Origin: Candidatus Pantoea floridensis
GTDB lineage: Bacteria > Pseudomonadota > Gammaproteobacteria > Enterobacterales > Enterobacteriaceae
DNA: 64,000 nt
Assembly (NCBI RefSeq): GCF_900215435.1
Contig: NZ_OCMY01000002.1
Span: 620,001-684,000, forward strand
Direction of reading: 5' to 3'
Part shown: in pieces, positions 5,146 through 54,660 of the stretch
Numbering within the stretch: position 1 is the stretch's first letter
How the letters are laid out: the number at the start of each line of letters is the position of its first letter
Made by a program: the position numbers and the translations under genes
Notes under the pieces: generated by a model
The model's database searches: none
What the model was told of the DNA's origin: nothing
Seen by the model: only the letters and a program-made list of their open reading frames with translations

Positions 5146-5183
5146 GGTTTTCTCCGGACATGAAAAAATGGATTATGCTGTGC

Positions 5184-5226
5184 GAACAGAATACGATGAA
5201 TTAATCGCATTTCACTATTCGTGTTC
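5184..5226. promoter_or_regulatory. Imperfect inverted repeat, possible TetR operator
   Basis: GAACAGAATA at 5184-5193 is mirrored by TATTCGTGTTC at 5216-5226 (one extra base in the right arm), with an inner CGAT/ATCG dyad. It occupies the 91-base gap between the methyltransferase and TetR starts, where an autoregulatory operator would be expected. Confidence 0.35.
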
Positions 5227-5236
5227 AGGAGAGCCT

Positions 5237-5875: not shown

Positions 5876-6005
5876 AAGATGGACTGGAAATCTCTGAAAG
5901 CGGTTAACAAACTCATTATTCACATTCTCAATAATCCACACCGCGAGTAAGCTTAAGAAAACCTTTTAGCTGGATGCAGCAAGCGAACAAATACGGGAGA
6001 GCAAA

Positions 6006-6827: not shown

Positions 6828-6835
6828 ATGAGAGT

Positions 6836-7055
6836 GCCAGGTGCGCATGAATGCGCACCCTACAAAAATCCCGCTAAAAACGTTGGGTCGCCATTCATGA
6901 TGTAATGGTTATCAATTAAGAGATGAAAAAAACTTTATTACCGAGCGCACACCTTGTAGCGGCGCAATTTATTGCGCGATAAATCGCGCCGCTACGGAAG
7001 GTGCGGTGATTTGAAACGGCGCCTAACTTACGAACATTACGCCATTTTTGGCAAC
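6836..7055. repeat. Intergenic hairpin repeats of two families
   Basis: The palindrome GGTGCGCATGAATGCGCACC at 6840-6859 begins a diverged copy of the unit seen at 2888. A second element at 6956-6995 has arms GTAGCGGCGC and GCGCCGCTAC, extended inwards by ATTTAT/ATAAAT across one mismatch. Its first 22 bases recur at 49885. CATTACGCCATTTTTGGC follows near 7035. No gene is present between 6828 and 7065. Confidence 0.7.
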
Positions 7056-7065
7056 CAATCTGCCT

Positions 7066-7953
7066 TTAGCTGAAATAACCCGCCTCACGCATATCCTGTA
7101 ATAATCCCGGTTCGGTGGGTTGCCAGCCGAACGTTTGGCGCGTCCATGCACTTGACGAAGGATTATCCGTTGAAGCGAAAAAGGCCATCCAACCGAGCCA
7201 GGCTTTTGCCTCCTCCAGCGTCAGGCTTTTAACCGGCAGCGCTAATCCTGCTCCGATAGTTTCGGCAATCTGACGGAATGGAATGCCTTCTTCCTGTACG
7301 GCATGCAGAATTGCACCTGCTTCGGCCTTTTCGGCCGCAAGGCAAAACAGCTCAGCGGCATCGTTACGATGCACCGCCGGCCAGCGATTTTCGCCCTCGC
7401 CAACATACACCGCCGCGCCTTTTTCTTTCGCCATATTGATGATCATCGGAATAAAACCGTGATCGCCAGCGCCATGTACCGTCGGTGGCAAACGGACCAG
7501 CGCCACGCGCACACCGCGATCGGCCATGGCCAGGGCGGCAACGTTGGAATTTGAACGAGGATGTGCGCCGGCCACGGGGCGAATGTGTTCCGTGGCGAGT
7601 TGTCCTGGCGAGACTAACGCTGTGCCGGTGGTGACTATCAGCGGGCGATTAGAACCGGCCAGTACCTCACCCATTGCCAGAATGGCGCGCTGATCGACCT
7701 CGGCGGCATGATCCATGCGGCTGAAGTCGTGAATATAACCGGCATGAATCACGCCATCGCTTTGCTCAACGGCGTTACGTAAACTGGCCACATCTTCCAG
7801 TTCGCCGCGGACCACCTGAACACCCTGCTGCTGTAGTTTTTCAGCTGAAGCATCGCTGCGTGCTAAACCTAGCACTTCATAACCGCGTGTCTGCAGTTTT
7901 TTCACAATGGCCGAGCCAATAAATCCGCTCGCCCCGGTCACAAAAATTCGCAT
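7066..7953 (-). CDS. NAD(P)-dependent epimerase/dehydratase-like SDR (extended type)
   Basis: 295-residue Rossmann-fold protein. The start at 7953 (MRIFVTGASGFIG) is preferred because GGAG lies 8 bases upstream and the glycine-rich loop GASGFIG (residues 7-13) then falls at the normal position; the frame opens seven codons earlier. It resembles extended SDRs acting on nucleotide-linked or free carbonyl substrates. The classical YxxxK pair is not obvious, so this is an atypical NmrA/epimerase-type member. It is divergent from the interrupted XRE regulator at 8057, whose intact relatives often control such a gene. Substrate unknown. Confidence 0.8.
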   Translation of the reverse strand: MRIFVTGASGFIGSAIVKKLQTRGYEVLGLARSDASAEKLQQQGVQVVRGELEDVASLRNAVEQSDGVIHAGYIHDFSRMDHAAEVDQRAILAMGEVLAGSNRPLIVTTGTALVSPGQLATEHIRPVAGAHPRSNSNVAALAMADRGVRVALVRLPPTVHGAGDHGFIPMIINMAKEKGAAVYVGEGENRWPAVHRNDAAELFCLAAEKAEAGAILHAVQEEGIPFRQIAETIGAGLALPVKSLTLEEAKAWLGWMAFFASTDNPSSSAWTRQTFGWQPTEPGLLQDMREAGYFS

Positions 7954-21713: not shown

Positions 21714-21792
21714 TATTTTATTATCACGAGAGCTTAACTGCTCAGACTATTGTCTTCATCGCTATTGTAAGCGCCACTGATAATAACGCCGA

Positions 21793-22005
21793 TTACAGCG
21801 GCGTAACGTTTCCAGCAGCTGGACCTTTAGCACCATTTTCAATGGTGAAAGAGACTTGCTGACCTTCATCGAGGGTTTTGTAATTGTCGCTCTGAATCGC
21901 AGAGAAATGGACAAAGACATCCTTGCTGCCGTCGTTCGGCGTGATAAAGCCAAAACCTTTATCCGAGTTAAACCATTTTACTAAACCAGTCATTTTATTA
22001 GACAT
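21793..22005 (-). CDS. cspA: Cold shock protein of the CspA family
   Basis: 70-residue OB-fold RNA chaperone that melts mRNA secondary structure. RNP1 (KGFGFIT) and RNP2 (VFVHF) are intact and length is standard. Sequence is closest in memory to E. coli CspA ([18 protein letters not shown]-like [19 protein letters not shown]) rather than CspC or CspE. AAGGAAG lies five bases before the ATG. A long gene-free stretch upstream, 22006-22426, fits the long structured 5' leader of cold-inducible csp genes. Confidence 0.9.
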
Positions 22006-22426
22006 AGATACTTCCTTAATTGATGAGCCACTAAGAGCGGCGATGATGGCCTGTAGTTAGAGAGTGACTTATTGGGCACTTAGGAGGAGGCTCACGAAGA
22101 AGGGTATCTTGAGATAACACCTGAACTGAGGACTGCTTTACTAAAACTGCTTTCATAAGGTCTGTATTCCAAACCGATGGCGCTATTAAGACATAGAGAA
22201 ATTAATTTAGCAACATTAAGGTATAATTATTTTAACCGCTTAAATGCCCAGATGGCTATATGCCTGTAAATTTCAGCTGATTGCAGGGTAATTATTGTTT
22301 TTTTACTGAAGCTCTTTGAGAAAGGGGCCAGATAAAAGCCCCAAAATAGTAACGTTAATAATTATTGGCGGAAGCACACCTTAAACGTCGAGTGTGATGT
22401 TATGGGCGCTGCACTGGAGCTTAATA
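22006..22426 (-). promoter_or_regulatory. Probable long 5' leader and promoter of cspA-like gene
   Basis: 421 bases with no coding signal. The part next to the gene would be transcribed leftwards as an untranslated leader, as in cspA, where it acts as a thermosensor. AT-rich sequence around 22196-22245 could hold the promoter. I do not see a clear cold-box sequence, so this rests on analogy. The far end adjoins the stop of an SDR gene also transcribed leftwards. Confidence 0.4.
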
Positions 22427-41823: not shown

Positions 41824-41981
41824 AACCCTGAAGCTGTAGGCAGTTTGCACATTATTGTTGAATGCTAAAAAATTATTGATTACTTTAGCAGAGCCCTAAC
41901 AAGGTCGTAAGCGTTTACGTTAGCCAACGCACATCCTCCTACTCCGAAATGGAGTATTTCTGGTGTGCAGGTAACGATTAC

Positions 41982-43193
41982 ATGTCTAAAATTTCTCTTC
42001 CGCTGATTTCATTTCCCCACCCACAAATTGCTGGCTTCATTCTCTTCTTTATTGCGGGCTTCGCTGACGGTCTTATGGTGCCTTTCTTTCCACTTTGGGC
42101 TCAGCACTCGGCGGCGATTCCCATTGGTCTAATCGGTTTTTTGTTTGGCTGCTATGCCGGCGGTGAACTGATCGCCGCTCCGTTTATTGGCGGCATTGCC
42201 GACCGCATTGGTCGTAGGCCGGTGCTAATTGGGTCGGCTAGCGGCATCGGCCTTGGTTTCATCGCCCTCTTTTTCACCCATGGCGTGGTAGAAACCGCCT
42301 GCGTGTTGGTTATCATCGGGATTTTTGAATCCGTACTTCATCCGACGATATACACGCTGATCGCTGATGTAACCCCAGAGGCTGAGCATCGCAACCAATT
42401 CAGTAAAGCTCGCGTTTTCGCCTGCGCGGGGGGGATCGCGGGGCCGCTGCTGGGAGCGCTAATCGTGCAAAGCAACCTGGGTTACGTGTTTTTGGCCAGT
42501 GGCATTTCTATGCTTTGCGGTGGCGTGATGCTGGTTATTCTCTTGCCCGAAACCCGGCAGCAACTTGCAGACGAAGACGCTGAAGAGGAGGAGGGCTTTA
42601 GTGCGTTAATGCCCGCTTTTCGCGATCGCCGACTTGCCGCATTATTGATTTGGGCGCTGCTGCTGGGTGTTGCTGGCAGCTGGGTCGAAGCCGTCATGCC
42701 GCTTTATGCCTATAATCAACTGGGGATCAGCAGCGCCAATGTCGGGCTGCTCTTCACTTTGGGCGCGGTGCTTAACACACTTGGGCAGTTAACATTGACC
42801 AGAATGCTGGCTCTGCGTTCGCCGATGTTCATCATTCTCAGTGCTGGCGCGACGTTGATACTGGCTTTTGCCGTGCTTTTGATTTTCTCTCATCTCTTCT
42901 CCCTGATCGTGGCCGTCTGTTTCTACTCCCTTTCCCAAATGATGGTCGGACCGTTGATGCCCGCAGCAGTCAATCAACTGGCTCCGGTCCGGCTGCGGGC
43001 AACCTATATGGCCGCTCTATCCGTGGTCAGCGATCTGCGTGACTCCGTGGGGCCGGCAACGGGCACGGCGCTGTTTGCTGTGACGTTTACCCTGCCGTGG
43101 ATGATCGGCATTCCAATCGTTGCAATGGCGGCATTAGGCCTGGGCATCTCTTTGTCATCGAATAATCGTTCCTCCTCACAGACGCCTGAATAG
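41982..43193 (+). CDS. MFS transporter (multidrug/DHA1-like)
   Basis: 403-residue, twelve-segment major facilitator. The ATG at 41982 follows CAGGTAACG; an in-frame ATG at 41949 would add eleven residues. The A-loop is GGIADRIGRRPVLIG, a strong MFS motif, and the central loop is acidic (DEDAEEEEG). It converges on another MFS gene 19 bases further on. Substrate is unknown; the layout is that of drug or metabolite efflux proteins. Confidence 0.85.
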   Translation: MSKISLPLISFPHPQIAGFILFFIAGFADGLMVPFFPLWAQHSAAIPIGLIGFLFGCYAGGELIAAPFIGGIADRIGRRPVLIGSASGIGLGFIALFFTHGVVETACVLVIIGIFESVLHPTIYTLIADVTPEAEHRNQFSKARVFACAGGIAGPLLGALIVQSNLGYVFLASGISMLCGGVMLVILLPETRQQLADEDAEEEEGFSALMPAFRDRRLAALLIWALLLGVAGSWVEAVMPLYAYNQLGISSANVGLLFTLGAVLNTLGQLTLTRMLALRSPMFIILSAGATLILAFAVLLIFSHLFSLIVAVCFYSLSQMMVGPLMPAAVNQLAPVRLRATYMAALSVVSDLRDSVGPATGTALFAVTFTLPWMIGIPIVAMAALGLGISLSSNNRSSSQTPE

Positions 43194-43212
43194 GAAGATT
43201 TCGGGCTATGTT

Positions 43213-44715
43213 CTAGCGGGTGCGCTTAACAGTGCACCCGACAAAGCCCTTATCGGCGATGGTACGCGTGCGCTTCGATTTGCCGTTGAATAACCAATAA
43301 CTCGCCAGCGCCAGGCCGCACACGCCGGTCGCGCCATACGTCAGCACCGCTGAAAATCCCTCAGTAAGCACCTGCTGCGCCACGTCATGAGCAAGCGCAA
43401 CCTCGCCACCGCTGGCAATCTGTTCTGCCAGCGCGTGCGCATCGTTGAGGGTTGGTATGATGCGTTTCAAACTTGCCGCCACGCTGGCTACCAGCAAACT
43501 CCCCATCAAGGCGATATTGATTGCCAGCGTAATCAGCCGCGCGCTGATATCAATTCCTGATGCCATGCCCGCTCGGTTACCGGGCACTGAACCGGTGGTG
43601 GTGTTTGTCACCGGTGTATTGGTGAGCCCCAACGCCATGCCTGCCAGCAGCGCGCCGGGTAATAAACTGGTGTGATATTCAGCGGCGAATTTCATCAATA
43701 TGAAGCCCACGCCGATGCTCAACAAACCCAGCGGAATCAAGCGCGCCGCGCCAAAACGGACCACCAGTTTTTCACCAATCGGCGGCATCAGCAGCGTAGG
43801 CAAGGTATAGGCCAGCAGCGCCAGCCCGGTTGCCATGCTGCTGTAGCCCAGACCGCTCTGATAATAAACCGGCAGATAAATTATTAGCGGCCAGAAGCTA
43901 AAGTTCATGCCAATCGAGCCCATCAGCGCGCCAGAGAATGGGCGAATGCGAAACACGGTGAAATCAAACATCGGGTGAGGATGGCGTGTTTCAATCCACA
44001 CAAACAGCAGCGCGCTGACCGCGGTGACCAGCATACAGAGCTGCACGATTGCGCTGCCCCAACCCAGGGAACGCCCTTGGGTGATAAGGTAGGTGATGCC
44101 CACTACGCTGAGAGATAGCGTCACCAGCCCAGCAAAATCGAGTTTTTTGGCTTCGCTATCTCGTGACTCCACCACGTTTTTCATCGCCAGAATCAGGGTG
44201 AGTAACGCGATAAAACCGTGTACCAAAAATACCCATTGCCAGCTGAACCAGGCCACCAGCATGCCGCCAATGATCGGCCCAAACCCCAGACCAAAGCCAA
44301 ACGTCATCCCCCATGCCGCAAACGCGCGGCTGCGTGATTTTCCCTGCGGGAACTGGGATGAAAGGATGGCAATCAGGCACGTCAGCATGGCACCACCGCT
44401 TAACCCTTGTAGCGCGCGTCCAATAATCAGCCAGCGCGCACTGTCGACCACGCCACACATCAGTGAGGTGAGGCTAAACGCCATGATACTGATGAGGAAA
44501 ACACGCTTGCGTCCATAGGTGTCCGCCAGCGTGCCGGTGGCCATGAGCACTGCGGTGCAGGCGAGCGTATAGGCGTTCATGATCCACTGCAACTCGCGGA
44601 AACTGGCGTGCATTTCGCGCTCAAGCACCGGCAAAATTACCGGCACGCTGGATATTTCCAGACCAGACATTAAAGCGGCGAGACAAACCGCCATCAGCGC
44701 TAACATGTTCTTCAT
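43213..44715 (-). CDS. MFS transporter, DHA2 (EmrB/QacA-like) family
   Basis: 500-residue, fourteen-segment drug:proton antiporter. The ATG at 44715 follows CAGGGATTGCGT; the frame is open 41 codons more, overlapping the regulator gene. Key segments are GTLADTYGRKRVFL (motif A), GRALQGLSGGAML (motif C-like) and WQWVFLVHGFIALL. Only EmrB-like permease is present, with no EmrA adaptor. It is divergent from a GlxA-type regulator, its likely controller. A stem (CGGGTGC/GCACCCG) within its last codons at 43217-43240 may end the convergent transcripts. Confidence 0.88.
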   Translation of the reverse strand: MKNMLALMAVCLAALMSGLEISSVPVILPVLEREMHASFRELQWIMNAYTLACTAVLMATGTLADTYGRKRVFLISIMAFSLTSLMCGVVDSARWLIIGRALQGLSGGAMLTCLIAILSSQFPQGKSRSRAFAAWGMTFGFGLGFGPIIGGMLVAWFSWQWVFLVHGFIALLTLILAMKNVVESRDSEAKKLDFAGLVTLSLSVVGITYLITQGRSLGWGSAIVQLCMLVTAVSALLFVWIETRHPHPMFDFTVFRIRPFSGALMGSIGMNFSFWPLIIYLPVYYQSGLGYSSMATGLALLAYTLPTLLMPPIGEKLVVRFGAARLIPLGLLSIGVGFILMKFAAEYHTSLLPGALLAGMALGLTNTPVTNTTTGSVPGNRAGMASGIDISARLITLAINIALMGSLLVASVAASLKRIIPTLNDAHALAEQIASGGEVALAHDVAQQVLTEGFSAVLTYGATGVCGLALASYWLFNGKSKRTRTIADKGFVGCTVKRTR

Positions 44716-44832
44716 ACGCAATCCCTGTAAAACGGTAAGTGAGTGCCAGCATGAAACAGTGACGTGATGATGGAAATTGCGCGCGATGCCATATATCGTC
44801 AAGATCATGCCAATATTGCGGATAGACCTTAT

Positions 44833-45837
44833 ATGCACATCACCTCAGCGCGCCGCGCCGATTCTCCTGCACCCATCAATCGCCGCCTGGTGCTTCTTGC
44901 GTATGAATGCCTTTGTACCTTCGAATTCGGTACGGCCGTTGAGGCTTTCGGTAGGGTAGACGAGGTTTTTGGCGCACCGTTATATGATTTGAGCGTAGCC
45001 TCAGTGGAAGAGGGCACCTTTGGCGCGCAGGGGGGAATTCGCCTGGTGGTGGATGGCGGGCTTGAACTGCTGGAAGCCGCGGGCACCATTGTTATTCCCG
45101 GTTGGCGCAGCGTGCATGAGCCTGCATCGCCCCGGCTGATTGCGGCGTTACAGCAAGCGCACAGCAAGGGGACGCGCATTGTTTCCATCTGTGCCGGAAG
45201 TTTTGTATTGGGAGCGGCCGGAATACTGGATGGAAAGCGTGCCACGGCCCACTGGAACAGCACCAATATTTTGGCGCAAAGGTTCCCGGCGGTTCACGTT
45301 GAGCATGGCATGATTTATGTTGATGAGGGCGACATCATCACTTCAGCAGGTGGTGCGGCGGGTGTCGATTTATGTCTGCACCTGATTCGAAGGGATTATG
45401 GTATTGAAGTCGCCAATCGTACCGCCCGCAGAATGGTGACGCCGCCGCTGCGTGAAGGCAATCAGGCGCAGTTGCTTCAGCAACCGGTGCCGCAGCGTCA
45501 GGCAAAAACGCTCTCTCCGCTGCTGGATGATTTACGCGGCAATCTGAATACGCCGCTGGTTATTGAGCAGCTGGCCAGGCAAGCCGGTATGAGTCGACGC
45601 ACGTTTTTGCGTCGCTTTCATGATGCCACCGGTACCACGCCCGGCGAGTGGATGTTGAGCATTCGTCTGGAGAAAGCCTGCGCGCTGCTTGAGAGCGGCA
45701 TGCTGAGTATTGAGCGGGTAGCCGAGCAGGCCGGTTTTGGATCGCCCGAAACGTTGCGCCATCACTTTCGGCAGCGGCTTAACACCACGCCGACTAAGTG
45801 GCGCAAGGCGTTTAGTGCACGGGTGGCAGTCGGGTGA
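44833..45837 (+). CDS. GlxA family AraC-type transcriptional regulator
   Basis: 334-residue regulator with a DJ-1/PfpI-like N-terminal domain (ICAGSFVLGAAGILDGKRAT, with Cys at the nucleophile-elbow position) and a C-terminal AraC helix-turn-helix pair from about residue 225 (LARQAGMSRRTFLRRFHDAT, VAEQAGFGSPETLRHHFRQR). FtrA-like members regulate transport or amino-acid genes. The start is uncertain: ATG 44833 begins the conserved part, but the frame opens at GTG 44764. It is divergent from the DHA2 exporter, so it may activate it. Confidence 0.85.
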   Translation: MHITSARRADSPAPINRRLVLLAYECLCTFEFGTAVEAFGRVDEVFGAPLYDLSVASVEEGTFGAQGGIRLVVDGGLELLEAAGTIVIPGWRSVHEPASPRLIAALQQAHSKGTRIVSICAGSFVLGAAGILDGKRATAHWNSTNILAQRFPAVHVEHGMIYVDEGDIITSAGGAAGVDLCLHLIRRDYGIEVANRTARRMVTPPLREGNQAQLLQQPVPQRQAKTLSPLLDDLRGNLNTPLVIEQLARQAGMSRRTFLRRFHDATGTTPGEWMLSIRLEKACALLESGMLSIERVAEQAGFGSPETLRHHFRQRLNTTPTKWRKAFSARVAVG

Positions 45838-45843
45838 TGGGGA

Positions 45844-46110
45844 TTACCTCAGCTGGCTATCTTTACTGCCTCGACGGTTGTAACCGCCAATCGCCGCCTG
45901 TTTTTTATCAATGTTACTCTGACAATTTACACAGTAACGCACGCCCTTTAACGCCGCACGGCGCGCTTCCGGGATGGGAGCGCCGCACTCATCGCAAAAC
46001 TCGGCACTTTCACCGTGTCCGAGATGACTGCGCGCCCGTGCCACGGCATCATCTACCGTGGCATCAATTTGTTTGTTTACTGCACCATCATCAGACCAAC
46101 CGCCCGCCAT
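45844..46110 (-). CDS. ybiI: DksA/TraR-type zinc-finger protein YbiI
   Basis: 88-residue protein with a four-cysteine zinc finger (CDECGAPIP and RYCVNCQ) and an N-terminal helical part lacking the long coiled coil of DksA. It closely follows E. coli YbiI, including the C-terminal GYNRRGSKDSQLR. Biochemical function is not settled; relatives bind RNA polymerase. It converges with the GlxA regulator (six-base gap) and diverges from the TPP riboswitch region. Confidence 0.93.
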   Translation of the reverse strand: MAGGWSDDGAVNKQIDATVDDAVARARSHLGHGESAEFCDECGAPIPEARRAALKGVRYCVNCQSNIDKKQAAIGGYNRRGSKDSQLR

Positions 46111-46213
46111 ATTTCACCTCTTACGCAAAGCCATGAACTAAGTATAAGGCAACATGCAATAAATGCCGGTCAGGCAACGATGCCGTGCAACATCAGCCGT
46201 TTTTTTACTCCTA

Positions 46214-46243
46214 TTGACACATCATCAGGCACCATCCTAGACT
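46214..46243 (+). promoter_or_regulatory. Promoter of the TPP-riboswitch operon
   Basis: TTGACA at 46214-46219 and TAGACT at 46238-46243 are 18 bases apart. Transcription would start near 46250, right at the 5' strand of the riboswitch P1 stem. Confidence 0.55.
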
Positions 46244-46250
46244 GCGGCTT

Positions 46251-46364
46251 GTTCCAAGGGGTGCCCTGTTAGGGGGCTGAGATTCTGCCGGCTGGTGTTT
46301 TTTACTGGCATCGTAGTGACCCTCCGAACCTGATCCGGCTAATACCGGCGTAGGGATGCGGAAC
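46251..46364 (+). ncRNA. TPP (THI-box) riboswitch
   Basis: Conserved THI elements occur in order: GGGGTGCCC at 46258-46266, GGCTGAGA ending at 46282, a variable P3 arm, ACCTGATC at 46328-46335, GGCTAATACCGGCGTAGGGA at 46337-46356. P1 is GTTCC (46251-46255) with GGAAC (46360-46364). The aptamer binds thiamine pyrophosphate and is normally found before thiamine synthesis or uptake genes; here it leads three acyl-activation and reduction genes. Recognition is from sequence and pairing, both clear. Confidence 0.93.
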
Positions 46365-46389
46365 CGCAGGGCTTGCACGCCCTGATTCC
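46360..46389 (+). promoter_or_regulatory. Alternative hairpin overlapping riboswitch P1
   Basis: CAGGGC (46367-46372) pairs with GCCCTG (46379-46384), and flanking GGAA (46360-46363) can pair with TTCC (46386-46389). GGAA is also the 3' strand of P1, so the two structures exclude each other, as expected for an expression platform. Whether control is by termination or by ribosome access is not clear, since no U-run follows directly. Confidence 0.5.
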
Positions 46390-46446
46390 ATCTTTGTGCT
46401 TTGTAGCGGACAGTTCGCGCTCTTCGGGTGATGCCGGGGAGTTTTA

Positions 46447-46476
46447 ATGCAATCGCAAAGGTGGCTACGAACATGA
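46447..46476 (+). CDS. Possible 9-residue leader peptide coupled to the LuxE-like gene
   Basis: GGGGAG (46436-46441) lies five bases before ATG 46447, which opens MQSQRWLRT and a TGA at 46474-46476. This stop overlaps the ATG of the next gene (ACATGA), whose own ribosome site is weak. The layout suggests translational coupling, with the strong site as the riboswitch target. Confidence 0.4.
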   Translation: MQSQRWLRT

Positions 46477-47555
46477 CCGAATCGGCAATAATCTCAACGT
46501 TGCTGGCTTTCCTCCAGCGCAGCGACAGCTCGGATGACGATTTCAACCAGCTGGCCCTCGAAATCTTCGCCTATCAATTCGCCCACAACCAACCCTATCG
46601 CCGCTTCGCCATCCAGCGAGGACGCACGCCGCTGACGGTCAAACACTGGCGCAATATTCCGGCGATTCCGATTACCGCTTTCAAAGACTTTACCCTGAGC
46701 TGTGGCCCCATCGAAGCGATGCAGGCTGTTTTTATGACCAGCGGCACCACCGGTACAGTCAAAGGTCGCAGCTACCATCCAACGCTGGACGTTTGGCAAT
46801 GTTCGATGATGCTGAATTTCCGCCAGCGCTTTATGGCAGGCGTCGATCGCATTCGTATGGGGATTCTGTTTCCGGATACCGTCGCGATGCCAAACTCCTC
46901 GCTGGCGACATACCTGGCGCTGGCGGTACAGGCCTTTGGTACACCCGCAAGTGAAGTGATGGTGGGTGAACACGGCCTCGACGTGGAACGCGTATTCGCC
47001 GCGCTTGAGCAGGCTGAAAACAGCGGTGAACCCTATGCGCTGCTGGGTGCCAGCTACAGCTTTGTACCGCTGCTGGACGAAATGCAGCGCCAGCAGCGTC
47101 GTTTCTCCCTTCCCGCCGGCAGCCGTATTCTTGACACCGGCGGATTTAAAGGCCAATCCCGCGAGGTTGCCGCAGAGGCATTTTACACATCGCTTGCCAA
47201 TGCCTTTGGCATTCCACGCGCGCAGTGCATCAACATGTACGGCATGACGGAAATCAGCACGCAATTTTATGACGAGGGCAATGAAATCTGTCCGCCGGTC
47301 AAATCCGGCCCGCACTGGATCCGCACGCGTGTGGTGAACCCATTAACCGGCGACGACATGCCCGATGGCGAAGTTGGCGTGCTGGTACATCACGATCTGG
47401 CGCATTTCAATTCCGTTTCCGCTTTGCTGACGGAGGATGCGGGCGTCATCGTGCCTGGCGGTTTTCACCTGCTTGGACGGGTAACCGGCGCGAATGCAAA
47501 GGGATGCTCACTGACCATGGAAGATTTTCTGGCTGCCGCGCAGGTGAATCCGTGA
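46473..47555 (+). CDS. LuxE-type acyl-protein synthetase
   Basis: 360-residue member of the LuxE family (acyl-protein synthetase, related to PaaK/ANL ligases). LuxE uses ATP to adenylate a carboxylic acid, then carries the acyl group on a cysteine. Seen here: the nucleotide motif FMTSGTTGTVKGRSYHP, a middle YGMTEISTQFYDEG motif, and near the end GANAKGCSLTMEDF, with a Cys in the position of the LuxE acyl-accepting cysteine. An in-frame ATG at 46431 is possible. The start at 46473 overlaps a short leader. The downstream LuxC-like gene overlaps its end by four bases, so both probably form a carboxylic acid reductase. No luxABD genes are present, so this is not bioluminescence. Confidence 0.88.
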   Translation: MTESAIISTLLAFLQRSDSSDDDFNQLALEIFAYQFAHNQPYRRFAIQRGRTPLTVKHWRNIPAIPITAFKDFTLSCGPIEAMQAVFMTSGTTGTVKGRSYHPTLDVWQCSMMLNFRQRFMAGVDRIRMGILFPDTVAMPNSSLATYLALAVQAFGTPASEVMVGEHGLDVERVFAALEQAENSGEPYALLGASYSFVPLLDEMQRQQRRFSLPAGSRILDTGGFKGQSREVAAEAFYTSLANAFGIPRAQCINMYGMTEISTQFYDEGNEICPPVKSGPHWIRTRVVNPLTGDDMPDGEVGVLVHHDLAHFNSVSALLTEDAGVIVPGGFHLLGRVTGANAKGCSLTMEDFLAAAQVNP

Positions 47556-49000
47556 AAGAAGTGGCGGGGCATCTGCCGGGCTTATGCGCCAGCGAAGTGC
47601 AATGGCACACGCTGCGATTTGGTCAGGGTAGTGAGATCGTGGAAGTGGATGTTCCGGCGCTGAACGAAGCGCAAATCATCGTGCTGACTGCCCGCGTACG
47701 CGCCAATGCGCGCGCCTATCTGCATCAGCTGAGCGTGGCGCAGATCATCACCATTATTGATGAAGCGGTGGCGCGACTGCTGGATCGCACGCATCCCTTG
47801 CGCATCAAGGCCGAAAAGCTGCTGCCGATCGTGACGGGCTATGACGCAGACATGGTGCGCCTTGGCCTCACCGGTTATCTCAAGACATTTCGCCAGCCGC
47901 AGCTTAAGCGCTTTCTGGCGGAGGACTTCGCCCATCCGCAGATGCTGGATGATTTTCAGCCACGGCCCAAAGGCGGTTTTGCCCGTGCGTTTGGCCCGGA
48001 ACTCCTGCTGCATATCTGGGCTGGCAATGTGCCGGGCTTACCGCTGTGGAGCCTGATTTGTGGTTTGCTGGTGAAGGCCGGCACCATTGGCAAATTACCC
48101 GGCAATGAACCGCTGATGGCGAGCTGGTTTGCGCAGCTGCTGGCCGAAATCGATCCTCAGCTTGGCGCGTGTCTGGCGGTGGTTTGGTGGCAGGGCGGTA
48201 GCGCGGAAACTGAGCCGACCTGGTTACGGCAAGCGGATGTGGTGCTGGCCTATGGTGGCAACAACACGCTCGCCGCCATTCAGCAGCGTTTGCCTGTCAC
48301 CACGCGTTTCCTGCCGCACGGCCATAAAATCAGCGTTGGCCTGGTAGCCGCCTCGGCGCTCAATACCCGTCAGGGCGCAGAACTGGCACGACGCGTGGCT
48401 TATGACGTGATGCGTTACGACCAGGCCGGCTGCTACTCGCCGCAGATGCTGTTTGTCGAGCGCGGAGGAGCGGTGTCATCGGACGAATTCGCCGCCTATA
48501 TCGCGCATGAACTTGCCGCGTTGGCACGTAAACATCCGCGCCGCCCACTGGCTATTGAAGAGATGAACAGCCTCGCGGCATGGCGTAATGGCGAAGAGAT
48601 GCGTGCGCTGGCGGATGGCCGAACGCTTTACGGCCATCCCACCGACGGCTGGGCGGTGGTGAGCGTGGCACAAGCGGAAGCGCTGTTACCTTCCGCACTC
48701 GGACGCACGCTGAAAGTGGTCGCCGTTGATGCGCTGGAGGAGGCTATACAGGCGTTAGCGCAGCAGCGCCAGGTTCTCCAGACGGCAGGCGTGGCTGCAA
48801 CGCCTGCCGAACTGTTTCGTCTTTCCGCTTTGCTGGGCCAGGCGGGTGTTACCCGCATTACGGCGTTCGGTGACATGACGTCGCCAGAAGCGGGCTGGCA
48901 TCACGATGGCCGTTTTAGCCTGCTTGATCTGGTCACTATCACCGAGATCGAGCAGGGCGCAGAGGCGGCGGCTGATCGATTCGCGCCCTATGCAGACTGA
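47552..49000 (+). CDS. LuxC-type acyl-CoA/acyl-protein reductase
   Basis: 482-residue NAD(P)H-dependent acyl reductase of the LuxC family, which takes the acyl group from LuxE onto its own cysteine and reduces it to an aldehyde. The active-site segment is YDQAGCYSPQML, the catalytic Cys in the family-typical QxxCxSPQ setting. Upstream HIWAGNVPGLPLW and GTIGKLPGNEPLMASWFA are aldehyde-dehydrogenase-like cofactor regions. GTG 47552 starts the gene, overlapping the LuxE-like stop (GTGA), with CAGGTG upstream. The TPP riboswitch controls the whole unit. The acid substrate is not known. Confidence 0.88.
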   Translation: MKEVAGHLPGLCASEVQWHTLRFGQGSEIVEVDVPALNEAQIIVLTARVRANARAYLHQLSVAQIITIIDEAVARLLDRTHPLRIKAEKLLPIVTGYDADMVRLGLTGYLKTFRQPQLKRFLAEDFAHPQMLDDFQPRPKGGFARAFGPELLLHIWAGNVPGLPLWSLICGLLVKAGTIGKLPGNEPLMASWFAQLLAEIDPQLGACLAVVWWQGGSAETEPTWLRQADVVLAYGGNNTLAAIQQRLPVTTRFLPHGHKISVGLVAASALNTRQGAELARRVAYDVMRYDQAGCYSPQMLFVERGGAVSSDEFAAYIAHELAALARKHPRRPLAIEEMNSLAAWRNGEEMRALADGRTLYGHPTDGWAVVSVAQAEALLPSALGRTLKVVAVDALEEAIQALAQQRQVLQTAGVAATPAELFRLSALLGQAGVTRITAFGDMTSPEAGWHHDGRFSLLDLVTITEIEQGAEAAADRFAPYAD

Positions 49001-49086
49001 TATGCATATTGCAGGGCGCGCATTCATACGTACCCAGACACCTCTAAGATTTCGCTGCATCACATCCCATATTTCAGGAGCCTTTA

Positions 49087-49854
49087 ATGAAATTCACTAA
49101 CCGCACGGTGCTGGTTACCGGTGCAAGCCGGGGCATTGGCGCTGCCCTTGCCAAAGCCTTCGCCGCGGAAGGCGCTTTTGTGGTGGTCAATTATCTGCGC
49201 AATGCAGACGCTGCCGCTAGCGTGGTTGAGGCGTGCCGGTCGCTGGGCGGAGAGGCATTAGCCATCGCGGCAGATGTCACCTCTGAGCAGCAGGTCAACG
49301 CCATGATGGAGCAGATCGTCAGCGCCACCGGCTGCCTTGATGCCGTAATCAACAACGCCTTTGCTCCCTATGTGTTTGATACCGACCTTCGCCAGCGTTT
49401 CTGGGAAACGCCGTGGTCAGCCTATCAGGCACAGTTCGATGGCTCGGTCAAAGCCGCCTATAACCTGTGCCAGGCGGCGCTGCCGCTGATGCGCGCACGG
49501 GTGCGCGGCAGCATCGTCAATATCGTCAGTGATCTGGTGGCGCGTCCTTCCGTGCCTTATCACGATTACATCACTGCGAAAGCGGGGCTGATCGGTTTTA
49601 GCCGCACGCTGGCCACAGAACTCGGCCCGCTGGGGATTCGCGTCAACTGCGTGGCTCCGGGATTGGTTTATCCCACCGATGCCAGCCAGGCAACGCGCGA
49701 AGAGGTGCGCGATTTCCTCACCGCACAAACCCCGCTGCGCCGCATCGCACGACCGGAAGATATCACCGGACCGGTGCTGTTTCTGGCATCAGACTGGAGC
49801 GAATTTGTCACCGGGCAGACGTTGTATGTGGATGGTGGATTGGTGATGAGCTGA
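49087..49854 (+). CDS. Short-chain dehydrogenase/reductase (FabG-like)
   Basis: 255-residue classical SDR, third gene of the TPP-controlled unit. TGASRGIG is the cofactor loop and NYLRNADA suggests NADPH preference. The catalytic Tyr-Lys is YITAK, the preceding Ser lies in NIVSDLVARPS, and INNAF provides the Asn motif. It ends with FVTGQTLYVDGG, typical of FabG-like enzymes. AGGAG lies seven bases before the ATG, 86 bases after the reductase. A role reducing the aldehyde made by the LuxC-like protein to an alcohol is plausible but inferred. Confidence 0.87.
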   Translation: MKFTNRTVLVTGASRGIGAALAKAFAAEGAFVVVNYLRNADAAASVVEACRSLGGEALAIAADVTSEQQVNAMMEQIVSATGCLDAVINNAFAPYVFDTDLRQRFWETPWSAYQAQFDGSVKAAYNLCQAALPLMRARVRGSIVNIVSDLVARPSVPYHDYITAKAGLIGFSRTLATELGPLGIRVNCVAPGLVYPTDASQATREEVRDFLTAQTPLRRIARPEDITGPVLFLASDWSEFVTGQTLYVDGGLVMS

Positions 49855-50189
49855 TGCGTGCGCATAAACCTATCTGCACGCGTCGTAGCGGCGCAATTTA
49901 TTGCGCAATATGTGGATAGGTGCGGTGCTGTCAGCAATACGCGCGATAATCGCGCCGCAACTAATTGTGCTAATCAACGATGAGTTAGCGCATTAAATAA
50001 TAGATAATACGCTAACTGATCCACCTCAGAAATTTCCTTAGTTGAAAGAGTAAATCGCATTGCTAAGGGCGGTTTTCAGCGATGTTATTTTTATGAATAC
50101 GGATCATAACTGGCTAAAATTTAGCTTCATTGAATTTTATCATTCCCCTATAGTTTTTGTGGTTAACGGAATTAACGATAGGGATATTT
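49855..50189. repeat. Intergenic region with hairpin repeat
   Basis: GTAGCGGCGCAATTTATTGC at 49885-49904 belongs to a 22-base exact match with 6956-6977. A degenerate inverse, GCGCGATAATCGCGCCGCAA, follows at 49941-49960. The remainder to 50189 is AT-rich and marks the beginning of the lower-GC island; promoter signals for the next gene likely lie here. Confidence 0.55.
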
Positions 50190-50888
50190 ATGTACCACAG
50201 TGATGCGGTGATACGGCAGCTTCAGGCGCAAAGGATTCTGGCAGAAAAACTCGACAATGCGGTTGCAGGCGTTATTGATGCCGTTTCGGATCAAGTCAGT
50301 AAGATCAATAAAGGTGCGACCCGGCTTTCATTTTATGCATCGTGTTTTACTGATGAATATTATGATGTTTGTAAAAAACAGGCGTTCGAAGATAATCGAT
50401 TCCTGATGGGGGTAGCGCAGTTAGTAAAAGAGCGAAATATTGTTTTCTCACTGCTAAAAACATACTTAGATTATCAACTGCAAAACAGAAACTTCCGGCA
50501 GCTTGAAGTAATAAAAATGCATCTAATGCGGGCTAACATCCATATCGCTGCAAGTACACTCACTTCATCTTCATTTAGTCTGGGCGCGACTCTTGCGGTC
50601 GTAGCGGGACTCAACATTACGCTACCTGTTGGAAGAAACATTGGACAAGTCGTTGGGGTTATGGCCGGTGGCTTGGGAATTTATGGGGTAGTTCAGAATG
50701 CAGCAGATAGCGCGAAGCGCCTGCAGTTAATGCATCCGCCTTATTATCACGCATTATATGTCCGTGAGCTCGAAATGATGTATTTCCTTGTTGAAACTAC
50801 GCTAATGCGTGCAGGCGCACTTAAAAACGAATGGCTTTCAGATTATGAGATCGCTGAAGTTTTAATGAAATTAATGAGAAAAGCATGA
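50190..50888 (+). CDS. Uncharacterised protein with glycine-rich hydrophobic segment; possible T6SS effector
   Basis: 232-residue protein of no family I recognise. It starts MYHSDAVIRQLQAQRILAEK (ATG 50190 after GATAGGGATATTT). The N-terminal half is helical and charged. Residues about 125-180 are hydrophobic and glycine-rich (SFSLGATLAVVAGLNITLPV, then GQVVGVMAGGLGIYGVV), as in membrane-inserting or pore-forming toxins. There is no signal peptide. It overlaps a 61-residue membrane protein by four bases, and an orphan hcp follows. That order resembles effector-immunity-Hcp sets such as the pore-forming Ssp6/Sip6 of Serratia, a comparison by layout rather than by alignment. Confidence 0.6.
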   Translation: MYHSDAVIRQLQAQRILAEKLDNAVAGVIDAVSDQVSKINKGATRLSFYASCFTDEYYDVCKKQAFEDNRFLMGVAQLVKERNIVFSLLKTYLDYQLQNRNFRQLEVIKMHLMRANIHIAASTLTSSSFSLGATLAVVAGLNITLPVGRNIGQVVGVMAGGLGIYGVVQNAADSAKRLQLMHPPYYHALYVRELEMMYFLVETTLMRAGALKNEWLSDYEIAEVLMKLMRKA

Positions 50889-51070
50889 AGAGATTTTTAA
50901 AACAGTGGTTAATAACTGAAGGAAAGTTTTTGTTATGTATCTATGGCCCGGTTATAACTACTTTAATATTTGGCGTGTTAAAGGTAATTTATTATCCAGA
51001 TAGTGGGATGTTGAGTGTGGGGATATTTTATCTATGCGCTCTGACATTTTTTGTTTATAAATTTCGTTAA
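50885..51070 (+). CDS. 61-residue membrane protein; possible immunity protein
   Basis: Starts at ATG 50885 overlapping the previous stop (ATGA). Two hydrophobic stretches (LLCIYGPVITTLIFGVLKVI and GIFYLCALTFFVY) suggest a two-pass inner-membrane protein. Small membrane proteins encoded directly next to membrane-acting toxins are often their antidotes. No family is recognised. AT-rich like its neighbours. Confidence 0.6.
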   Translation: MKRFLKQWLITEGKFLLCIYGPVITTLIFGVLKVIYYPDSGMLSVGIFYLCALTFFVYKFR

Positions 51071-51085
51071 TTTAAAGGATTAAAT

Positions 51086-51565
51086 ATGTCAACTCCAGCA
51101 CATCTCTGGTTAGAAGATGAAAGTGGTTCTCCGATTGTGGGTTCGTGCACAATGCCGACAAGACTTGGTTCGATAGAGCTCAATTCGGTCATGCACAATA
51201 TTACGATTCCGGTGGATTCGCATACGGGAAGGCTGACAGCCACACGGATTCATGCACCGATATCCATTCAAAAGGAGTTCGATAGAACAACGCCGGTGCT
51301 GTTGCGTGCATTATGTCAGGCCAGAACGCTGAAATCTGCCACTATCAAGATGTACCGAATTAACGAAGCGGGCATTGAAATTGAATATTTTAATATTCTC
51401 CTGGATAACGTCAAAATCTCGAGCATCTCTCCGGCCCTGCTGCCAAACGGCCAGACCAGCACGCATCTGGAAAATATTGAGCTACGATATGAAACGATCA
51501 CATGGAAATATGTCGACGGCAACATTGTGTTTAAGGATGGATGGAATGAGAGAATGATCGCTTAA
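51086..51565 (+). CDS. Orphan Hcp-family type VI secretion tube protein (TssD)
   Basis: 159-residue protein with the Hcp beta-barrel pattern: HLWLEDESGSPIVGS at the start, VDSHTGRLTATRIHAPISIQ in the extended loop, ALCQARTLKSATIKMYRINE and ENIELRYETITWKYVDGNIV at the end. Hcp hexamers stack as the T6SS tube and carry small effectors in their lumen. No other T6SS gene is in the window, so this is an orphan. The two upstream genes may be its cargo and the matching immunity protein. AAAGGATTAAAT precedes the ATG. Confidence 0.85.
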   Translation: MSTPAHLWLEDESGSPIVGSCTMPTRLGSIELNSVMHNITIPVDSHTGRLTATRIHAPISIQKEFDRTTPVLLRALCQARTLKSATIKMYRINEAGIEIEYFNILLDNVKISSISPALLPNGQTSTHLENIELRYETITWKYVDGNIVFKDGWNERMIA

Positions 51566-51625
51566 TCTCGTTTGATGCTGTGACTGTAAAGTCCAGGACA
51601 GCTGATTTTAAGGAGGAGAACTAAC

Positions 51626-52156
51626 ATGAACAAAATAGTATTGCTCAAAGATGACATAACCAAAGTTCCGGCAGACGCTATTGTGAACGCCGCCAACACC
51701 TCCTTACTGGGCGGAGGCGGTGTTGATGGTGCCATCCATCGGGCAGGTGGGCCAGCGATTCTGGCTGAATGCCAGAAAATCAGGAATCGACAAGGTGGCT
51801 GTAAAGTCGGAGATGCAGTCATCACCACGGCGGGAGATTTGCCGGTAAAATATGTCATTCACACCGTTGGACCACACTGGCATGATGGGAAACATGACGA
51901 AGAAACGTTGTTGAAAAATGCCTATCTGAGCTGTTTTAAACTGATCGCTGAATATGGCATTCAAACCGTTTCGTTTCCCAATATCAGCACTGGTATTTAC
52001 AAATTTCCTAAAGCGCTGGCGGCTCAAATCGCGCTGGATGTGATTAACCAAAGTTTGCGTGATAACCCCAAAATCGAGAGAGTCAATTTGGTCTGCTTTG
52101 ACGAGGAAAATTACGGTCTGTATTTAAAAATGTTGGATGAACAACATGATCAATAA
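51626..52156 (+). CDS. ymdB: Macrodomain protein, YmdB-like O-acetyl-ADP-ribose deacetylase
   Basis: 176-residue macrodomain. The ADP-ribose-binding parts are IVNAANTSLLGGGGVDGAIH and FPNISTGIYKFP, which match E. coli YmdB along the full length (VIVNAANPSLMGGGGVDGAI, FPAISTGVYGYP). YmdB removes acetyl from O-acetyl-ADP-ribose and also inhibits RNase III. AAGGAGGAG precedes the ATG. The lower GC and place next to an Hcp gene suggest either a relocated housekeeping gene or an accessory member that could counter ADP-ribosylating toxins. Confidence 0.88.
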   Translation: MNKIVLLKDDITKVPADAIVNAANTSLLGGGGVDGAIHRAGGPAILAECQKIRNRQGGCKVGDAVITTAGDLPVKYVIHTVGPHWHDGKHDEETLLKNAYLSCFKLIAEYGIQTVSFPNISTGIYKFPKALAAQIALDVINQSLRDNPKIERVNLVCFDEENYGLYLKMLDEQHDQ

Positions 52157-52174
52157 TTCTTCAGAATAAAAAAA

Positions 52175-52190
52175 GCGGCCCTAAGGCCGC
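52175..52190 (-). terminator. Terminator of the malEFG transcript (bidirectional)
   Basis: GCGGCC at 52175-52180 pairs with GGCCGC at 52185-52190. On the minus strand the hairpin is followed by seven T residues, a strong intrinsic terminator 50 bases after the malG stop. The plus side serves the macrodomain gene less well. Confidence 0.8.
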
Positions 52191-52239
52191 CAAAAACCTC
52201 AACTGCAGTGAACGTTGAGGAAGGAGGATAATAATCGGA

Positions 52240-53130
52240 TTAGCCTTTCACGCCACCGGCCGTCAGGCCGCTGACCAGCCAGCGTTGTGCCAGTAAGAAC
52301 ACCAGCGTAATCGGAATCGCAGACAACACCGCCGCAGCGGCAAAGTCGCCCCACAGATAGTTTTGCGGGTTGAGATATTGCTGCATGCCGACCGCCAGCG
52401 TGTAGCTGTTCACATCGCGCAGCAGCAGCGATGCAACCGGCACTTCCGTTACAGCGGCGATAAACGCCAGAATAAACACCACCGCCAGAATCGGTACCGA
52501 CAGCGGCAGCAGCACCAGTCGGAATGCCTGCCACGGCGTGGCACCATCCAGCGCGGCGGCTTCTTCCAGCGAGCCATCGATGGTTTCGAAATAGCCTTTA
52601 ATAGTCCAGACGTGCAGGGCAATGCCGCCAAGGTAGGCAAAGATCACGCCGCCATGGGTGTTGAGGCCGATAAACGGCAGATATTGTCCCAGGCGATCAA
52701 ACAGCGCATAGAGCGCCACCAGCGACAGCACAGCGGGGAACATCTGGAAAATCAGCATGCCTTTTAACAAGGTGGCGCGTCCGGCAAAGCGCATGCGCGC
52801 AAAAGCGTAGGCGCAGGTGGTGGAGAGCGCCACAATGCCAATGGCGCTGATGGCGGCGATCTTTACCGAGTTCCACAGCCATAGCAGCACCGGGAACGGC
52901 GGTGGCGTCACGCGGCCGTCGGCGTGCTCCACGCTGAAGCCTAGCGCTAGCTGCCAGTGTTCCCAGGAAATCTGATCCGGAATCAGCGAGCCAGTAGCGA
53001 AATTACCGGCGCGCAGTGAGATGGCGAAGACCATCAGCAGCGGAAACAGTATCCCCGCAATAAACATCAGCAGCAGCAGATGCGTCATCAACAGACGCAG
53101 CTTTTGCGACTTGGGTTGTACCATAGCCAT
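52240..53130 (-). CDS. malG: Maltose/maltodextrin ABC transporter permease MalG
   Basis: 296-residue inner-membrane permease with six membrane segments. The EAA loop that docks on MalK reads [20 protein letters not shown]. It works with MalF and a MalK dimer, fed by MalE, to import maltose and maltodextrins. The C-terminus ends [12 protein letters not shown], as in E. coli. It follows malF by ten bases in the malEFG transcript. Confidence 0.96.
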
Positions 53131-53139
53131 AACGCCTCC

Positions 53140-54660
53140 TTAATCGAATTTCATCCGCACGGCTTTCAGATTGATCACCGCCAGCGCGCCCACCAGCAGG
53201 AAGATCAGCGTGGCAATCGCTGCCGCCAGGCCAAAGTCCTGCCCGCCGCCGCCTTCAAACGCGATACGCCAGGTGTAATTCACCAGTAAATCGGTATAGC
53301 CGGCCGGCGTGGTGGTGCCGATACGATCTGGCCCGCCGTTGGTCAGCAGCTGCACCAGCACAAAGTTATTAAAGTTAAAGGCAAAACTGGCGATCATCAG
53401 CGGCATCAGCGGCTTCAATAGCAGCGGCAGGGTAATCAGGAAGAAATTCTGCATCGGCCCGGCGCCGTCCATTGCCGACGCTTCATAGAGATCGTCCGGA
53501 ATCGCTTTCAGCAATCCCATACACAGAATCATCATGTAGGGATAACCGAGCCAGGTGTTCACAATCACCAGCATGGTGCGCGCCAGCGTCGGATCGCTGA
53601 ACCAGGCGGGCTGAAAACCAAACAGCGCCTTTAGCATCACGTTGATTTCACCGAAGCTCTGGTTGAACAGCCCTTTAAAGATCAGGATCGAGATAAACGC
53701 CGGCACGGCATACGGCAAAATCAACATCACGCGATACACCGCCTTGCCTTTCAGCGCTTCCCACTGCACCAAACAGGCTAATACCATACCGACCGCCACG
53801 GTCAGGATCACGGTGATGAATGAGAACAGCAGCGTCCAGCCAAAAATGGCCAGAAACGGCTTCTGAATCCCTTCATCAGTAAACACACGGATGAAGTTTT
53901 TCCAGCCGCTGTTCACCGTGAAGCCCGGGCTGAGCGCTTCACCACTGGCGTTCTGATAGAAGCCGGTGTCACGATTGGCCTGATACAGCGCGCCGCTTTG
54001 TTGATTCTTCAGATCCCCGTTCGGCTGCAACGCATAGAGCGGCCGCGTGCCGGAGAACTGCCTCAGCGAGCTCATCACCACGCGACGACCATCCGGCAGT
54101 TCAGCCTGAATCTGGTTCAGCGCCTGGCGATTGCTGGTGACGATGCGCAGCGTGGCACGTTCACCGGCAGGGGGCGGGGCGCTGGTGAGTTTCAGCTGTT
54201 GCGCGCCGCCAAAGGCAAATGCGGGGGAAACAAAGGTTTGCCCGTTGGAGGCTTCCGTCAGCACCAACTGCCAACGATCGCCCGCCGGAAACAGCGAAAA
54301 ATTGAGCGCCGAGCCATCCTGATACTGTCGGCTCAGCAACACCTGTTGCGCCCGCTCCAGCGTCAGCTGGTTGGTGCTGCTGTAGTTAGTGAAAGCAATC
54401 GCAACGGTGCAGGCGAGGGGAAACAGCACGAACAGCGCCATGCCCGCCAGCCCGGGATAGACATAGCGCCAGGCGTAGGCGCGACGATTTGCATAAATCC
54501 AGATGCCGACGGCGCTGATAATCAGCGTCACCAGCGCAAACAGATATTCACCTTTTGCATACATCAGCACGAGCAGATAGCCGACCAGCAGACAGCAGAT
54601 ACCGAGAAAAAGAGCCTTCAGCACGGCGCCGTAGCGTGCTGTTTTCGGTTTTCCTGACAT
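53140..54660 (-). CDS. malF: Maltose/maltodextrin ABC transporter permease MalF
   Basis: 506-residue permease with eight membrane segments and the large periplasmic P2 domain (about residues 95-275), which contacts MalE. The EAA loop is YEASAMDGAGPMQNFFLITL, and the substrate-site region NNFVLVQLLTNGGPDRIGTT is close to E. coli MalF. Residues 210-250 of the P2 domain vary from E. coli, as is usual. It lies between malE and malG. Confidence 0.96.
   Translation of the reverse strand: MSGKPKTARYGAVLKALFLGICCLLVGYLLVLMYAKGEYLFALVTLIISAVGIWIYANRRAYAWRYVYPGLAGMALFVLFPLACTVAIAFTNYSSTNQLTLERAQQVLLSRQYQDGSALNFSLFPAGDRWQLVLTEASNGQTFVSPAFAFGGAQQLKLTSAPPPAGERATLRIVTSNRQALNQIQAELPDGRRVVMSSLRQFSGTRPLYALQPNGDLKNQQSGALYQANRDTGFYQNASGEALSPGFTVNSGWKNFIRVFTDEGIQKPFLAIFGWTLLFSFITVILTVAVGMVLACLVQWEALKGKAVYRVMLILPYAVPAFISILIFKGLFNQSFGEINVMLKALFGFQPAWFSDPTLARTMLVIVNTWLGYPYMMILCMGLLKAIPDDLYEASAMDGAGPMQNFFLITLPLLLKPLMPLMIASFAFNFNNFVLVQLLTNGGPDRIGTTTPAGYTDLLVNYTWRIAFEGGGGQDFGLAAAIATLIFLLVGALAVINLKAVRMKFD

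Follow-up and report, generated by a model that had tools for sequence, protein, structure and literature searches.

A thiamin pyrophosphate riboswitch precedes a LuxE-LuxC-dehydrogenase cassette predicted to salvage a carboxylated thiamin precursor by reduction

Why should enzymes of the LuxE and LuxC families stand behind a thiamin pyrophosphate (TPP) riboswitch? The question is raised by an operon of Candidatus Pantoea floridensis (assembly GCF_900215435.1, contig NZ_OCMY01000002.1), located at 46214-49854 of the 64,000-nucleotide stretch analysed here (the window; positions 620,001 to 684,000 of the contig), in which a TPP aptamer is followed by genes for a LuxE-like acyl-protein synthetase, a LuxC-like acyl-thioester reductase and a short-chain dehydrogenase/reductase (SDR). 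This operon is the enterobacterial form of a wider cassette, TPP-luxE-luxC-(ABC importer)-sdr, whose ATP-binding cassette (ABC) importer has an NMT1/THI5-type binding protein and which was found by sequence comparison in Proteobacteria and Bacillota. These comparisons lend good support to a role of the cassette in salvaging a carboxylated thiamin precursor by reduction, and we lean towards a TPP-repressed pathway acting on an oxidised precursor, most likely 4-amino-2-methylpyrimidine-5-carboxylate, the acid of hydroxymethylpyrimidine (HMP), hence ‘HMP acid’.

A preliminary description of this DNA had placed a THI-box aptamer before luxE and had named covariance scoring as a possible refutation; the match to RF00059 proved to be full length (model positions 1-105 of 105) and, with 67.2 bits, lies above the gathering score of 54.3. 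The three enzyme families assigned in that description were likewise confirmed, the LuxE-like protein scoring 71.1 bits with PF04443 (family cut-off 24.9), the LuxC-like protein 288.7 bits with PF05893 (cut-off 21) and the SDR 209 bits with PF13561 and 294.3 bits with NF006393 (cut-off 292). Neither Lux-like protein reached the curated cut-off of its luminescence equivalog (74.4 bits against 550 for LuxE, NF052244; 76.4 bits against 750 for LuxC, NF052251). The closest solved relative by sequence is the LuxE-LuxC complex 7xc6, with which the acceptor cysteine motif of the LuxE-like protein and the active-site cysteine of the LuxC-like protein both align. A GC[ST] motif was found close to the LuxE C terminus in all 81 proteins from the loci described below (80 by pattern and that of L037 by eye). 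The LuxC cysteine was unchanged in 22 of 22 aligned rows, which is firmer evidence than the windows inspected by eye, where the QxxC site was visible in 79 of 82 proteins and the remaining three windows were shifted. The SDR shows the YxxxK and glycine-rich nucleotide motifs of a classical SDR, with G12, Y161 and K165 unchanged in 22 aligned proteins, and its catalytic pattern is present in 79 of 80 loci, the 80th (L031) having YTTGK.

Our main set of relatives comes from a search of genomes in which a LuxE alignment served as the query; it comprises the 80 best loci out of 388 confirmed ones and is biased to close relatives. The hosts include Pantoea, Erwinia, Enterobacter-named genomes, Bosea, Methylobacterium, Azospirillum, Azorhizobium, Asaia, Curvibacter, Polaromonas, Alcaligenaceae, Bacillus, Domibacillus, Geobacillus and Desulforamulus, among others. 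In all 80 loci luxE is next to luxC, and tblastn detected the SDR in 78; the two misses (L035 and L076) both reach a contig edge, at which L035 has a partial SDR. The ABC permease and the NMT1 binding protein lie inside the cassette in 69 loci; importer genes are absent from eight enterobacterial loci and from L065, L079 and L086, and L089 and L091 have permease and binding protein without the usual ATPase in line. Other recurrent gene clusters were seen in at most 10 of 82 loci or overlapped the cassette in position. Within the sampled genus, LuxE was matched at a level of at least 74% in six of 35 relatives.

Scoring LuxE-LuxC-SDR loci with RF00059, a check proposed in the preliminary description, bore out the TPP link. 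With a consensus pattern and Rfam combined (a home-made TPP model was dropped, MAFFT having misaligned the variable arm), an aptamer was found 5′ of luxE in 78 of the 80 loci. The pattern accounted for 70, as compared with 0 of 1600 shuffled upstreams, and Rfam added eight of the remaining ten (L073, L075, L076, L082, L087, L090, L092 and L093), five of them at 51.4-53.9 bits, slightly below the cut-off of 54.3; in L087 the added aptamer is located before thiW. L050 has only 143 bases upstream of luxE and no aptamer among them, leaving L070, whose cassette is otherwise complete, as the one member of the set in which the sequence 5′ of luxE is long enough and yet no aptamer was found. Among 398 sampled genomes of the host's phylum, LuxE was matched at E up to 1e-40 in six, all with an aptamer: this genome, G023 (by coordinates the genome of L017) and four with aptamers of 48.6-60.9 bits, three of these slightly below the cut-off; one of the four, G559, appears to be the genome of L052, which leaves three new cases. 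In the phylum of the Bacillus locus, LuxE was matched in 16 of 299 genomes. The four closest all have an aptamer, whereas the remaining 12, with 16 LuxE loci of lower similarity, showed none in the fetched flanks, either at the gathering cut-off or at E up to 0.05. As the aptamer accompanies the closest loci and none of the 16 less similar ones, the TPP link is a trait of this clade and not of LuxE proteins at large.

The leader offers a candidate mechanism for this control. Two predicted helices (Table 1) are mutually exclusive, the sequestor hiding the ribosome-binding site of luxE and the anti-sequestor freeing it. Across 12 enterobacterial leaders, 111 of 120 cells of the anti-sequestor and 95 of 108 of the sequestor are paired, as against 55-86 and 35-54, respectively, in controls in which the alignment was slid by 1-3 columns; this pairing is a matter of consistency rather than proof of covariation, because most columns are invariant. 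The predicted arrangement fits a translational off-switch.

In the relatives, the binding protein of the ABC importer scores 175.7 bits with PF09084 (NMT1/THI5 family). The folds best matching its model are 3ix1 and 4nmy (ThiY and a thiamin-binding protein), followed by THI5, tied with SsuA; identity to known binders is 13-21%, and 18% to ThiY over the fold. By family and by the fold of the model the importer is of ThiY/THI5 type and may bind HMP or a related pyrimidine. A second form of the cassette was met on plasmids, where LuxE was matched in 29 records, four of which were examined for gene order. Plasmids of Lactiplantibacillus plantarum and Levilactobacillus brevis carry TPP-NCS2 permease-luxE-luxC-sdr and a Niallia taxi megaplasmid carries TPP-TPP-thiW-NCS2-luxE-luxC-sdr, an NCS2 permease replacing the ABC importer, while on a Priestia megaterium plasmid the cassette is of the ABC type and its aptamer scores 49 bits, less than the cut-off. 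Two compared NCS2 proteins share 59% identity and are nearest to xanthine and uracil permeases. As two unrelated importer types stand beside the same three enzymes, the arrangement suggests that the substrate is taken up from outside. Public plasmid records annotate the LuxE- and LuxC-like proteins as ‘long-chain fatty acid--CoA ligase’ and ‘acyl-CoA reductase’.

Two different small plasmids of food-borne Lactobacillaceae (L122, NZ_CP035118.1; L123, NZ_CP050546.1) share one NCS2-luxE-luxC-sdr module: the protein accessions are identical and the aptamers score alike, so that a module for vitamin salvage seems to have been transferred recently. In L124 a tandem pair of TPP aptamers (6766-7062) precedes thiW.

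The absence of thi genes near the operon, stated at the outset, holds for the window but not for the family, as thi genes adjoin the cassette in some Bacillota. In Bacillus sp. EB106-08-02-XG196 (L087) the order is TPP-thiM-thiD-thiE-TPP-thiW-luxE-luxC-ABC-ABC-SBP-sdr (SBP, substrate-binding protein), with one aptamer before thiM and one before thiW (4745-7401); in L116, TPP-luxE-luxC-sdr has an AIRS-ThiN fusion resembling thiL-thiN after it and faces TPP-thiD-thiM-thiE. Together with the near-universal aptamer and the thiamin-type importer, these neighbours support the earlier proposal of thiamine control and of a product that feeds thiamine metabolism.

In order to narrow down the substrate, an enzyme able to take each possible product was sought in cassette genomes. 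Auxotrophy was dropped as a clue, having no discriminating power because every one of the 40 cassette genomes searched has both ThiC and ThiG; co-occurrence of ThiM with the cassette at genus level was equally uninformative, strong ThiM being present in most of 36 genomes of the genus. ThiM exceeded its cut-off in 24 of the 40 cassette genomes and not in 16 (two Bosea, one Azorhizobium, five Methylobacterium, four Azospirillum, two Curvibacter and two Polaromonas), seven of which contain sub-threshold fragments. It was also not found in G475, G587 and G614, rated 100% complete, and was present in G105 and G223. Thiamin pyrophosphokinase (TPK) was detected in nine of 43 genomes, the Bacillota, and in none of the 34 proteobacterial genomes searched, including all 16 without ThiM. 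Nor did these 16 yield a full-length ThiK, although six have short fragments; in two enterobacterial genomes ThiK reached 241 and 233 bits, itself short of the curated threshold (299). ThiD was found in all 43 genomes searched. HMP is thus the only one of the possible products that every host can use through a recognised kinase, whereas a thiazole alcohol or thiamin itself would lack a recognised entry in the 16 genomes. Of the three acids proposed in the preliminary description (thiamine acetic acid, thiazole acetic acid and a pyrimidine carboxylate), the pyrimidine carboxylate is favoured on this account and the other two less so; reduction to the alcohol is supported by the conservation of the cassette.

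The aptamer, operon structure, conservation, catalytic residues, importer fold and kinase inventory are observed here; the substrate, the cofactor, the direction of the reaction and the repression by TPP are inferred. At low TPP the leader would expose the luxE ribosome-binding site. The acid would be imported by the ABC importer with its ThiY/THI5-like binding protein in most hosts seen, by the NCS2 permease in Lactobacillaceae and Niallia, and by another route in the form present in the window, which has no importer in the operon. The LuxE-like enzyme would then adenylate the acid with ATP and hold it as a thioester on its C-terminal cysteine, from which the LuxC-like enzyme would take the acyl group onto its own cysteine and reduce it to the aldehyde. 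The SDR would convert the aldehyde to HMP, to be phosphorylated by ThiD for thiamin synthesis.

Several observations weigh against HMP acid. The kinase argument would be weakened if an unrecognised thiazole or thiamin kinase existed; the main contrary evidence is that thiW, described in a section of PMC5627462 as encoding a thiazole transporter, adjoins the cassette in two loci (L087 and L124), and thiM is present in both loci carrying a thiD-thiE set (L087 and L116). For these reasons the thiazole acid has to be taken seriously as a rival: if 4-methylthiazole-5-acetic acid underwent this chemistry, hydroxyethylthiazole for ThiM would result. This reading also gains weight from the strong thiM of this genome and of the searched enterobacterial cassette genomes, and from the nearest folds of the LuxE-like protein, which include PaaK-type aryl-acetate ligases. 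We consider it unlikely, given the 16 cassette genomes and the three genomes rated complete in which no ThiM exceeded the cut-off, and an importer whose fold is closest to binders of pyrimidine and thiamin. According to titles cited in PMC7780320 and PMC4515825, the two acids are known metabolites of thiamin. Import of whole thiamin acetic acid and its reduction back to thiamin would suit an importer of this fold class as well, yet we hold it rather improbable, since the genomes concerned, in which TPK and full-length ThiK were not found, would have no recognised enzyme to phosphorylate the product, and an NCS2 permease would be an improbable carrier of thiamin acetic acid.

In luminescent bacteria, LuxE and LuxC reduce long-chain fatty acids, and the nearest solved relative comes from such a system, so that a fatty-acid or general carboxylic-acid reductase merely placed under TPP control has to be considered. 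That role was rejected as the principal explanation and is given very little probability, because the equivalog scores are low and TPP control is clade-wide, being near-universal here and not seen at the 16 less similar LuxE loci; the thiamin-type importer and the thi neighbours also speak against it. We give as little credence to an unlisted thiamin-related acid, such as a carboxylated analogue or an antivitamin-derived acid, or to a pathway running towards the acid. The identity of the substrate is predicted, and HMP analogues are described as occurring in nature, but acyl activation with ATP is typical of the reductive direction. Carboxythiazole (cHET) was rejected as a substrate because it is already used as a thiamin precursor by E. 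coli, and reduction of its 2-carboxylate would presumably spoil it rather than yield one. HMP acid remains our preferred substrate.

The features of the operon are collected in Table 1. The luxE start is most likely the ATG given there, preceded by AAAGGTGG 8 bases 5′ of it, rather than that of the longer frame, because this ATG is unchanged across the 12 aligned enterobacterial leaders and the nearest homologues mostly have 360 aa. The GTGA overlap of luxE and luxC previously described is formed by the luxE stop TGA at 47553-47555 and the luxC start GTG at 47552. A promoter belonging to the operon had also been claimed: a consensus-like site is indeed present, but the scanned region holds two promoter-like sites as against 1.9 in shuffles, so that the call rests on position and not on statistics.

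Table 1. Positions of the operon's genes and of its leader elements, in part putative, in the window
Feature	Position	Strand	Remarks
Promoter-like sigma-70-type site	46214..46243	+	TTGACA-18-TAGACT; consensus match
TPP riboswitch aptamer (THI element, RF00059)	46247..46373	+	Rfam 67.2 bits, E 5.1e-11
Putative anti-sequestor	46352..46395	+	46352-46363 (aptamer 3′ edge) pairs with 46386-46395
Putative ribosome-binding-site sequestor	46388..46464	+	CCATCTTTG 46388-46396 pairs with CAAAGGTGG 46456-46464
luxE-like acyl-protein synthetase	46473..47555	+	360 aa; longest possible frame from 46428
luxC-like acyl-thioester reductase	47552..49000	+	482 aa; GTG start on luxE stop
SDR oxidoreductase	49087..49854	+	255 aa; proposed aldehyde-to-alcohol step

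The contig bearing the operon measures 741,572 bases in a genome of five contigs, and the plasmid record closest to it, from Pantoea sp. BRR-3P, is 729 kb in size and shows 99.3% identity over the operon. A genome-wide search revealed six TPP aptamers, four of the others heading a thiBPQ-like binding protein-permease-ATPase operon, thiC, thiMD and an operon with thiG and an NMT1-type binding protein; all located thiamin genes of this genome lie away from the LuxE-LuxC-SDR operon. The fifth is one of two aptamers outside the window (G000:C1:3394641-3394735 and 3411798-3411892, locus L136) that have the same orientation, stand 17.1 kb apart and have identical stretches of 23 and 51 bases in common. 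With a phage-type integrase open reading frame (ORF) after the first and thiMD after the second, it seems that the thiMD riboswitch served an integrating element as attachment site and that a second aptamer copy was left behind.

Among the 12 larger ORFs of 41949-54660, the part of the window scanned with Pfam, there was no match to luciferase or LuxD families, in line with the earlier statement that luxAB and luxD are not nearby. An FtrA-like AraC regulator gene (44764-45837, +; 417.1 bits, slightly below the cut-off of 425) is divergent from a major facilitator superfamily transporter gene (43213-44838), and nothing ties the regulator to the operon. Genes for an Hcp-type type VI secretion protein (51086-51565) and a macro-domain protein (51626-52156) follow 3′ of the operon (51086-52156, +), and a cspA thermoregulator RNA (184.3 bits) is found at 21733-22178 (-).

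The preliminary description knew of no system combining LuxE-LuxC-SDR with thiamine control, and among the matches listed we found no LuxE/LuxC-thiamin link in the open-access literature either. A 2002 comparative study of thiamin genes reportedly named a THI-controlled SDR, oarX, in which case the SDR may have been noticed before; no paper with both oarX and thiamin was found in the open-access literature. LuxE does not occur in the main text of a TPP regulon catalogue of 255 genomes (PMC3766115), term look-up in the available sections of PMC5627462 gave no LuxE/LuxC-thiamin link, and the lux genes in the consulted part of PMC3219970 are reporter and array probes. Within the readable literature, we would call the cassette a TPP-controlled precursor salvage using chemistry so far undescribed for such salvage. 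That it represents an undescribed, horizontally spread route of vitamin B1 salvage in Proteobacteria and Bacillota, TPP-controlled and served by two interchangeable importers, in which a LuxE/LuxC/SDR relay rebuilds HMP from its carboxylate, strikes us as an evenly balanced proposition. If true, soil, plant and fermented-food habitats would hold a genuine supply of nutrients in the form of oxidised thiamin fragments, and B1 salvage would gain an acid-reducing branch, suggesting that microbes recover thiamin pieces regarded as excreted waste. Enzymes known from luminescence for long-chain aldehydes would have quite another job in this thiamin-tied clade.

Compared with LuxE-LuxC of bioluminescent bacteria (7xc6), the cassette has the same two families, encoded by adjacent genes and with cysteines aligned in both partners, but it differs from them in its scores far below the curated cut-offs, its TPP control, its SDR partner and, in most hosts, its importer, and from the lux operon in having no luciferase or LuxD gene among the ORFs scanned around it. 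The aptamers catalogued in the 255 genomes, so far as the main text of PMC3766115 goes, precede thiamin synthesis and transport genes, as here. Closer in purpose is ThiXYZ-YlmB-TenA, the salvage system for base-degraded thiamin, which, as set out in a part of PMC5627462, is likewise a TPP-controlled salvage of damaged pyrimidine with an NMT1/THI5-type ABC importer; unlike it, the cassette is proposed to activate and reduce an acid in place of the YlmB and TenA steps. The ThiM-ThiD-ThiE-ThiW salvage genes have the same riboswitch class, and in L087 and L116 they share an operon with the cassette or form a divergent one next to it. Whereas their products handle alcohols (free HMP and hydroxyethylthiazole), the cassette would add a prior step from acid to alcohol.

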